This document shows, in pieces, positions 19,286 through 63,448 of a stretch of 64,000 bases of DNA. The first letter of the stretch is position 1. The number at the start of each line of letters is the position of its first letter. The notes beneath the pieces were generated by a model. The model saw nothing but the letters and a program-made list of their open reading frames with translations. It had not been told where the DNA came from and did no database searches. Source of the stretch: an uncultured bacterium. Lineage in GTDB: Bacteria; Desulfobacterota; BSN033; UBA1163. Position numbers and translations under genes: made by a program. The stretch is from NCBI GenBank assembly GCA_938002255.1, contig CALLAL010000007.1, positions 1-64,000 on the forward strand, read 5' to 3'.

Positions 19286-19302
19286 CCCTCGTTGATCTCA
19301 CC

Positions 19303-19527
19303 GTAACCCGTCAGTTATGGGGTGTTTTCGGTTTAAAAGGGTTGGAACGTTCCTTCTCCAAAACCTTGAAGAGCGGTTATAAAAGGTTATTTTCATCGAA
19401 GCCCTCATGCCTTTTGAATCGGATTTTTTTAAATCAGATTGGGTTGTTTGATGAACAGAGGTTTCGCTTCAAGGTTTTTCCGAAGCAACCTCCCAACCCT
19501 TTTTTATTTCTTTAACTGAGGGATTAC
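19303..19527 (-). mobile_element. miniature transposable element (MITE), copy 1, inverted
   Basis: A 225-bp non-coding element in inverse orientation to the copies at 40636 and 62133. Its ends are GTAACCCGTCAGTTATG and, reverse-complemented, GTAATCCCTCAGTTAAA. It is flanked on both sides by the identical octamer ATCTCACC (19295-19302 and 19528-19535), a target duplication. It is the most diverged copy. The short reading frame present in the other two copies is broken here by a one-base deletion, arguing against coding. Subterminal inverted repeats (AAAAGGGTTGG) and AAAACCTTGAA arms would let the whole element fold into a long hairpin. Confidence 0.9.
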
Positions 19528-19546
19528 ATCTCACCTTTCTCTCTTA

Positions 19547-19575
19547 TTGTCAAGTACAATTGAATGGGTTAGTAT
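19547..19575 (+). promoter_or_regulatory. sigma-70 promoter of slp, 19 nt past MITE
   Basis: TTGTCA (19547-19552), a 17-bp spacer and TAGTAT (19570-19575). The MITE ends at 19527, exactly 19 bases upstream of the -35 element. The leader to the start at 19593 would be only about ten bases. Confidence 0.5.
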
Positions 19576-19592: not shown

Positions 19593-20138
19593 ATGAACAT
19601 TGGTCTTCGTTTCCTCTGCTTCTTATTTGTTTTGCTCTTGTCGGGTTGCGCCCATGTGATTTCGAAAGATTTGAGAACTAAAGCCGATCCATCTCTCACC
19701 CTGAGTCAGGTCCGTCAGGATCCCGAAGCCTTTAAAGGGAAGATGGTCCTTTGGGGAGGAGAGATTATTGAAACATTAAATCTGAAAGATGCGACCACTC
19801 AGATTGAGGTTTATCAAAAACCACTCGGGTGGAGAGGAGAGCCCCGGGGAGTTATAACCTCAGAGGGAAGGTTCTTGATCTTAACAGATCAATCTCTGGA
19901 TCCTTATCTCTACCGGAGCGGAAGAAGGATCACGGTGGCGGGAGAAATTCTCGGAACCAAGGTTAAACCTCTGGGTGAAATGGACTATCATTACCCCCTA
20001 ATTGCCAGCAAACAGATTCACCTCTGGCCAGAATACGTCTATGTTTATGACCCCTATCCCTACTATTTTGATCCCTGGTGGTATTATGGTCCGAGATGGT
20101 ATTGGGGAATCGGTTTCCACTACCATTATCGCCGGTAA
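19593..20138 (+). CDS. slp: Slp-family outer-membrane lipoprotein
   Basis: A 181-residue lipoprotein with signal peptide MNIGLRFLCFLFVLLLSGC, lipobox LLSGC and Cys-19. The mature part matches the Slp family (DPEAFKGKMVLWGGEI, then GRRITVAGEILG). The tail is unusually rich in Tyr, Trp and Pro (YVYVYDPYPYYFDPWWYYG), a feature of some Slp proteins. Slp of E. coli is a starvation-inducible outer-membrane lipoprotein of unclear function. GGGGGAG precedes the ATG at 19593. The promoter lies directly after a MITE, which may affect its expression. Confidence 0.88.
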   Translation: MNIGLRFLCFLFVLLLSGCAHVISKDLRTKADPSLTLSQVRQDPEAFKGKMVLWGGEIIETLNLKDATTQIEVYQKPLGWRGEPRGVITSEGRFLILTDQSLDPYLYRSGRRITVAGEILGTKVKPLGEMDYHYPLIASKQIHLWPEYVYVYDPYPYYFDPWWYYGPRWYWGIGFHYHYRR

Positions 20139-40407: not shown

Positions 40408-40481
40408 TGGGCGATGCGGGAGTTGAACCCACGGCCTTTGGTTCCGGAGACCAACGCTCTATCCAACTGAGCTAATCGCCC
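40408..40481 (-). tRNA. tRNA-Arg (anticodon CCG)
   Basis: A full cloverleaf can be drawn on the minus strand. The acceptor stem is GGGCGAT, the D-arm has GCTCAGTTGGATAGAGC and the anticodon loop is CTCCGGA with anticodon CCG. The T-loop is GGTTCAACTCC, and CCA is encoded at 40405-40407. It reads CGG codons. Confidence 0.97.
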
Positions 40482-40519: not shown

Positions 40520-40635
40520 TCCTTATTTCCTTTCACTTTAATACACATCATATCGAGTTTTCTCTAAAGGATAAAAACGAACAAATCGGGAATCACCCTT
40601 TTAGCTATGTCTATCCCATCTTTCGAAAATCTGTC

Positions 40636-40861
40636 GTAACCCCTCAGTTAAAGAAATAAAAAAGGGTTGGGAGGTTGCTTCGGAAAAACCTTGAAGCGAA
40701 ACCTCTGTTCGTCAAAATGACCCAATCTGATTTAAAAAAGACCGATTCAAAGGGCAGGAGGGCCCGGATGAGGGTAACCTTTTATAACCGCTATTCAAGG
40801 TTTTGGAGGAGGAACGTTCCAACCCTTTTAAACCGAAAACACCCCATCACTGAGGGGTTAC
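40636..40861 (+). mobile_element. miniature transposable element (MITE), copy 2
   Basis: A 226-bp non-coding element with ends GTAACCCCTCAGTTAAAG and, reverse-complemented, GTAACCCCTCAGTGATG: 13 bp of perfect terminal inverted repeat. It is flanked by the identical octamer AATCTGTC (40628-40635 and 40862-40869). It is close to copy 3 over its full length. Subterminal AAAAGGGTTGG/CCAACCCTTTT and AAAACCTTGAA/TTCAAGGTTTT arms give a long hairpin. GTAA ends plus 8-bp duplications are features of the IS66 family, so that family is a possible source of transposase; none is in the window. Confidence 0.92.
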
Positions 40862-40880
40862 AATCTGTCAATTTTTTCTA

Positions 40881-40909
40881 TTGACATCCAATAATGGGAT
40901 TTTATAGGA
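40881..40909 (+). promoter_or_regulatory. sigma-70 promoter of liv cluster 1, 19 nt past MITE
   Basis: TTGACA (40881-40886), a 17-bp spacer and TATAGG (40904-40909). The MITE ends at 40861, exactly 19 bases before the -35. Transcription would start near 40916. Confidence 0.7.
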
Positions 40910-62095: not shown

Positions 62096-62125
62096 ATTAT
62101 GATGAAGATTGAATGAAAAAGTCAA
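62096..62125 (-). promoter_or_regulatory. sigma-70 promoter of argS
   Basis: The minus strand has TTGACT (62120-62125), an 18-bp spacer and CATAAT (62096-62101). The -35 lies seven bases from the left end of the MITE. Confidence 0.5.
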
Positions 62126-62132
62126 GAAAGGC

Positions 62133-62356
62133 GTAACCCCTCAGTTAAAGAAATAAAAAAGGGGGGAAGTTGCTTTGGAAAAACCTTGAAGCGAAACCTC
62201 TGTTCGTCAAAACGACCCAATCTGATTCAAAAAAAACCGATTCAAAGGGCATGAGGGCCCCGATGAGGGTAACCTTTTATAACCGCTATTCAAGGTTTTG
62301 GAGGGGGAACGTTCCAACCCTTTTAAACCAAAAACACCCCATCACTGAGGGGTTAC
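62133..62356 (+). mobile_element. miniature transposable element (MITE), copy 3
   Basis: A 224-bp non-coding element with the same ends as copy 2 (GTAACCCCTCAGTTAAAG and, reversed, GTAACCCCTCAGTGATG). It is flanked by the identical octamer AGAAAGGC (62125-62132 and 62357-62364). It has a few substitutions and small indels against copy 2, including loss of GGG in the left subterminal arm, which weakens that pairing. It lies between the divergent argS and IolB-like genes. Confidence 0.92.
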
Positions 62357-62375
62357 AGAAAGGCTGTGAGTTAAA

Positions 62376-62405
62376 TTGACAGTCTGAATTCGAAAGAGAT
62401 ATAAT
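62376..62405 (+). promoter_or_regulatory. sigma-70 promoter of IolB-like gene, 19 nt past MITE
   Basis: TTGACA (62376-62381), an 18-bp spacer and a perfect TATAAT (62400-62405). The MITE ends at 62356, exactly 19 bases before the -35. The leader to the start at 62435 would be about 22 bases. Confidence 0.75.
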
Positions 62406-62434: not shown

Positions 62435-63448
62435 ATGGAAAGTACGATGAAGAAATATGCAAGTCGAATTGAGAAGGACAAAGTCAATCCCCATTTCCGT
62501 TATGATGGGAAGAGAAGTGGACTTCTCCTCGATCCTCGAAAAGAAAACGTTCCCCTTCAGATGCTGGGGTTTGGGATCTACCGATTGAAATCGGAATTCA
62601 TCACCCAAAAGACCCTGGACAAGGAGATGGTCCTCGTCCCACAGGATGGAAAGTTTGAAGCAGAGATCAATGGACAGAAGTTTTCTGGTGAAAGAATCAA
62701 CGGCCCTTTCGCTTTAGGGCTTGGGCGGTCTAATGCCTCTGCCCTCTATGTCCCTATGGATGCCAGGTTAAGGATTCGGGGAAAGGGCGAGGTCGCTTTC
62801 TTTGAGGCTCCTGCTTTCAAAGAAAACCCCCCTTTCTTTCTGCCAAGCGAGGAAGTCAAGGTCGTTTCGAGAGGAGAATGGGTCTGGCGAAGAGATATTA
62901 TCTCTCTAATCAGTCCGAAGGATGCAAGCTCTAACCTGATCGTGGGAGAAACCTACAGCCCTCCAGGATTCTGGTCCGGCACGCCACTGCATCGACACGA
63001 TCGGAATCAACCTCAAAAAGGGGAGTCAGACCATGAAGAAATCTATTACCATCGGTTTAATTGGAAAAAATACCCCAAGGACCAATTTGGACCCTATGCG
63101 GTTCAGCTCCTTATGGATGGAAAGAGGTTGATGAAAGCCTATCTCATCGGTGAAAAGAGTATCTTTGCCATTCCAGGAGGATGCCATCCGGTCGTTGCCT
63201 CCCCGGTTTCAGAACTGCTCTACCTCTGGGGGTTGGCAGGCCAGGGAGAAGAAATAACGATGTGGGATATCCCCGAATTCCTTCATCTCAAATCCTTTGA
63301 GGAAATTTTTAGAACAATCGACCGGGATCAACAGAAGAGACCTCTGTCTCAGAATCAAATTGAGAAAACCTGCAACGCTTATCCGTTCACAGAGGAACAG
63401 AAGACGCTCTTCATAGCCATGCTGAGAGAGAGATATGGCATCGAATGA
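62435..63448 (+). CDS. IolB-like (5-deoxy-glucuronate isomerase family) cupin
   Basis: A 337-residue double-cupin protein. The metal region reads GFWSGTPLHRHDRN and DHEEIYYHRF, the two His and Glu ligands of IolB. YAVQLLMDGKRLMKAYLIGEKSIFAIPGGCHPVVASP carries the last ligand (split by short loops). It is longer than Bacillus IolB by about 65 residues, with extra material at the C-terminus. Together with the UxaE-like gene that overlaps its end, a sugar-acid pathway is likely; the substrate is uncertain. Confidence 0.75.
   Translation: MESTMKKYASRIEKDKVNPHFRYDGKRSGLLLDPRKENVPLQMLGFGIYRLKSEFITQKTLDKEMVLVPQDGKFEAEINGQKFSGERINGPFALGLGRSNASALYVPMDARLRIRGKGEVAFFEAPAFKENPPFFLPSEEVKVVSRGEWVWRRDIISLISPKDASSNLIVGETYSPPGFWSGTPLHRHDRNQPQKGESDHEEIYYHRFNWKKYPKDQFGPYAVQLLMDGKRLMKAYLIGEKSIFAIPGGCHPVVASPVSELLYLWGLAGQGEEITMWDIPEFLHLKSFEEIFRTIDRDQQKRPLSQNQIEKTCNAYPFTEEQKTLFIAMLRERYGIE

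Follow-up and report, generated by a model that had tools for sequence, protein, structure and literature searches.

A distinct clade of IS66 transposons and its non-coding derivatives repeatedly inserts at one fixed position, 19 nt upstream of the -35 box of gene promoters, which suggests that these elements find their target by recognizing the promoter or the RNA polymerase bound to it. We hold the targeting itself with high confidence. That polymerase acts as the guide is inferred without transcription, binding or transposition data, and is more likely than not.

Three MITEs share a fixed distance to promoter-like sites

The window analyzed here is a 64,000-nucleotide stretch of contig CALLAL010000007.1, part of a 3.27-Mb, 59-contig assembly (GCA_938002255.1). 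It contains three well-bounded elements of 224-226 bp, with ends GTAAyCCCTCAGT and a perfect 8-bp duplication at each (Table 1). In every case a TTGACA-like hexamer begins exactly 19 nt outside one end, reading away from the element, and the 19 nt differ in sequence between sites. These data confirm the element ends, duplications and hexamers of the original prediction, which had proposed promoter-directed insertion from these three copies. However, its claim of a good -10 at each site, with spacers of 17, 17 and 18 bp, requires softening: the better -10 at copy 2 has a shorter spacer and is weak, that at copy 1 matches the consensus at 4 of 6 positions, and only copy 3 features a perfect -35/-10 pair. 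The MITE folds into a long hairpin, but its action as a strong terminator found only weak support. A tRNA gene ends about 150 bp left of copy 2, with no sign that it is involved.

Table 1. Features of the three MITE loci in the window, and second genes in two longer IS66 elements from public genome records (L252 and L268).
Sequence	Position	Strand	Feature	Details
Window	19295..19302	.	8-bp target duplication, left copy	ATCTCACC
Window	19303..19527	-	MITE copy 1 (IS66-type ends, non-coding)	TIRs GTAACCCGTCAGT / ACTGAGGGATTAC; nhmmer match to the family
Window	19528..19535	.	8-bp target duplication, right copy	ATCTCACC
Window	19547..19575	+	Promoter-like site	TTGTCA, 17 nt, TAGTAT; upstream of a lipoprotein-like ORF with ATG at 19593
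Window	40408..40481	-	tRNA gene	
Window	40628..40635	.	8-bp target duplication, left copy	AATCTGTC
Window	40636..40861	+	MITE copy 2	Long hairpin, z = -5.4
Window	40862..40869	.	8-bp target duplication, right copy	AATCTGTC
Window	40881..40908	+	Promoter-like site	TTGACA, 16 nt, TATAGG; upstream of an ABC-transporter ATPase-like ORF
Window	62096..62125	-	Second, divergent promoter-like pair	TTGACT-18-CATAAT; just left of copy 3, reading away from it at 7 nt from its left end
Window	62125..62132	.	8-bp target duplication, left copy	AGAAAGGC
Window	62133..62356	+	MITE copy 3	
Window	62357..62364	.	8-bp target duplication, right copy	AGAAAGGC
Window	62365..62375	+	11-bp spacer between duplication and -35	
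Window	62376..62405	+	Target promoter	TTGACA, 18 nt, TATAAT (12 of 12); ORF ATG at 62435
L252	381-1277	+	Second gene matching the Druantia protein DruA (PF14236)	Between the left end and the transposase
L268	1914-2858	+	Second gene matching the Druantia protein DruA (PF14236)	Between the left end and the transposase

The 19-nt register is repeated genome-wide and in related genomes

To test this spacing beyond the window, we searched the whole genome with the element and its ends, retrieved about 68 copies with their flanks, and delimited them with a profile. Most carry an 8-bp duplication with no or one mismatch. Over 132 outward flanks, exact TTGACA occurs 15 times at offset 19 against 0.07 per offset elsewhere, and TTGACA with at most 1 mismatch occurs 34 times against 0.7 (Poisson p about 1e-44). 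Counted per insertion, 46 of 61 copies with both flanks have the hexamer at 18-20 nt (mostly exactly 19) on at least one side, whereas shifting the test position gives 5.7 on average and never more than 12; of the copies with a good duplication, 36 of 47 have it at 18-20 nt. About a quarter of copies show no -35-like hexamer at this distance. Two copies without matching duplications (in L033 and at L054:3072) have a promoter at 19 nt on both sides, as expected if two insertions recombined. The three window sites were the starting point of this analysis, so the other copies are an independent test.

Related genomes hold MITEs of different length and sequence with the same ends. Of 141 distinct ends, 36 have the hexamer at exactly 19 nt against 0.8 per other offset. 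As an orientation control, the reverse arrangement (TTGACA N19 facing the element) has no match in 23 genomes.

A clade of IS66 transposases is the inferred mobilizer

In one relative (G005, matching record JAGXSW010000085.1, titled Syntrophaceae bacterium), the C-terminus of an IS66 transposase runs straight into the MITE end. A scan of public genomes with that fragment returned complete elements with the same kind of ends in records titled Syntrophaceae, Proteobacteria, Riflebacteria and Acidobacteria, although several records are metagenome bins whose names may be wrong. Terminal inverted repeats beginning GTA(A), which appear typical of IS66 and are also found in ISAba24 and ISAva2, together with perfect 8-bp duplications, were present in the records L252, L260, L261, L268 and L269. 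In L252, L260, L261 and L269, complete elements have TTGACA, TTTACA or TTGACT at exactly 19 nt. The transposases, here termed clade A, pass the IS66 cut-offs (NF033517, 244.6 bits against a cut-off of 180; PF03050, 134.9 against 23.1) and are separated from the other IS66 proteins by a branch with 100/100 support. Elements of 1.5 kb in L261 and L269 hold only the transposase gene and lack the accessory genes tnpA and tnpB of the canonical three-gene form; as single-gene IS66 forms probably also exist, this excludes only the canonical form. Some longer clade A elements carry a second gene (Table 1).

Full-length elements of this clade follow the same rule: 12 of 53 ends have the hexamer at exactly 19 nt (background 0.4, p about 3e-14), against 1 of 44 in the distant IS66 clade. 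Promoter-adjacent copies are scattered throughout clade A and over several phyla, so the habit looks ancestral to it. In assembly G007, a multicopy IS66 element with other ends (GTATCACTTTAGC) breaks the assembly in at least 12 places (contig ends L135, L140, L142, L144-L149), and no 19-nt rule was seen at the ends read. A scan of viral contigs for clade A found nothing, and IS66 elements of plasmids are too distant to belong to it. The window's own genome has no detectable IS66 transposase in its 98% complete assembly, so the mobilizer is inferred from relatives; the copies may be relics, or the gene may be missing from the assembly.

The promoters predate insertion

Using sequence downstream of four insertions, we searched relatives for the corresponding sites. 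The asd promoter (five relatives), the copy-3 promoter (three) and the gap promoter (two) are conserved with their -35 and -10, but with no element end in the 400 nt upstream. Moreover, in another species (G004, locus L368), a different MITE of the same end type sits 17 nt upstream of the same copy-3 promoter, a parallel hit. The element is thus the newcomer, and promoters are hit repeatedly.

The register is set at the -35, but chosen sites also feature a -10

Among 82 flanks with a good -35/-10 pair near the element, 58 have the -35 at exactly 19 nt. The -10 position varies twice as much (sd 1.21 nt against 0.56 nt), and spacer length and offset are nearly uncorrelated; the register is therefore set at the -35, and an anchor on the -10 alone was rejected. 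The -10 nevertheless matters. With a motif for the 11 nt plus -35 trained on relatives only, 76% of element-adjacent sites in the window's genome scoring at least 8 have a correctly spaced -10, against 26% of equally scoring intergenic sites and 11% of genic sites. For imperfect -35s, the figures are 29 of 40 against 23 of 102 (p = 5e-8). Promoters were called here by consensus only, and exact TTGACA hexamers upstream of ORFs do not discriminate, since controls there have a -10 as often as targets (75% against 73%). A transposase that read only the nearby DNA should not depend on a box about 42 nt from the element end, whereas sigma-70 polymerase, which binds both boxes, is the natural reader. 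Of the two guides put forward in the original prediction, bound polymerase thus fits better than the -35 sequence alone.

We suggest that the three window elements are miniature, non-autonomous derivatives of clade A, whose transposase inserts its DNA with an 8-bp staggered cut at one fixed place relative to sigma-70 promoters. The duplicated octamer occupies about -54 to -47, one helical turn (11 bp) upstream of the -35 hexamer. We infer that the transpososome docks on a promoter-bound RNA polymerase, via sigma region 4 and/or an alpha C-terminal domain on the A/T-rich DNA just upstream of the -35, such that the active sites face the first accessible turn of DNA behind the polymerase. A possible benefit, also inferred, is that the element lands beside transcription units without breaking genes or core promoters.

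Alternative explanations

The principal alternative, which we consider less likely but possible, is that the transposase reads the DNA itself, as an A/T tract plus the TTGACA hexamer one turn from the cut, and lands at promoters only because that sequence is most common there. This is consistent with the register being fixed to the -35, with the equal -10 frequency at exact TTGACA hexamers upstream of ORFs, and with the tract from -9 to -2 before the hexamer, which is A/T-rich, with T most frequent from -6 to -2 (up to 75%, at -5), and more so than in control promoters. The tract fits a favored alpha-CTD site but also leaves room for direct DNA reading. Against this alternative stand the roughly threefold excess of a -10 over intergenic controls at equal motif score, and the -10s that accompany most imperfect -35s at targets.

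Survivorship, whereby insertion is random but only insertions just upstream of promoters persist because they are harmless or helpful there, is very unlikely. Insertions in genes would be removed by selection, and the copies lie in or near intergenic DNA, but selection could not plausibly hold the distance to a single nucleotide in MITEs of different sequence, in both orientations, and in full-length elements of several phyla. Other MITEs carry outward promoters (PMC10969869), but a promoter that is part of the element or created by its insertion is contradicted here by the intervening perfect duplications and the differing 19 nt, and refuted by the empty sites in relatives. Chance agreement of three sites is refuted by about 65 further copies in this genome and 141 ends in relatives that repeat the rule.

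Comparison with known systems

Family membership is IS66, and the target mode is the new part: we found no report of a bacterial element with a fixed position relative to promoters in the literature searched, which excluded most subscription journals. If real, this targeting gives a testable link between transposition and transcription initiation, explains how such elements can multiply in gene-dense genomes with little damage, and turns insertion maps into a promoter map for uncultured bacteria; a transposase of this kind could also be a tool for mapping promoters in strains.

Clade A shares with the IS66 family (NF033517, PF03050) its transposase family, its GTAA-starting inverted repeats and its 8-bp duplications, which are also made by ISPpa5a and ISPpa7 (PMC3281130). 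It is, however, at most about 30% identical to the full-length proteins of the other IS66 clade compared and at most about 28% identical to the best PLSDB plasmid matches, can consist of one gene only, and lands at a fixed place relative to promoters, which single copies of ISAba24 and ISAva2 do not. Correia elements and other bacterial MITEs with promoter effects are likewise small inverted-repeat elements often found upstream of genes, but carry promoters inside the element, whereas here the promoter is the pre-existing target; the review describing them has no mention of IS66 (PMC10969869). Site-directed bacterial transposons such as Tn7 at attTn7 also direct target choice to a defined position (PMC10969869), but Tn7 uses a single specific chromosomal site, whereas here the target is the general class of promoters. 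The nearest functional analogs are the yeast retrotransposons Ty1 and Ty3, which insert upstream of the transcription start sites of Pol III genes, with the Ty1 integrase binding polymerase subunits (PMC5911963). These belong to an unrelated enzyme class in a eukaryotic host, and contact with polymerase remains an inference for clade A, in which the distance is fixed to about one nucleotide.
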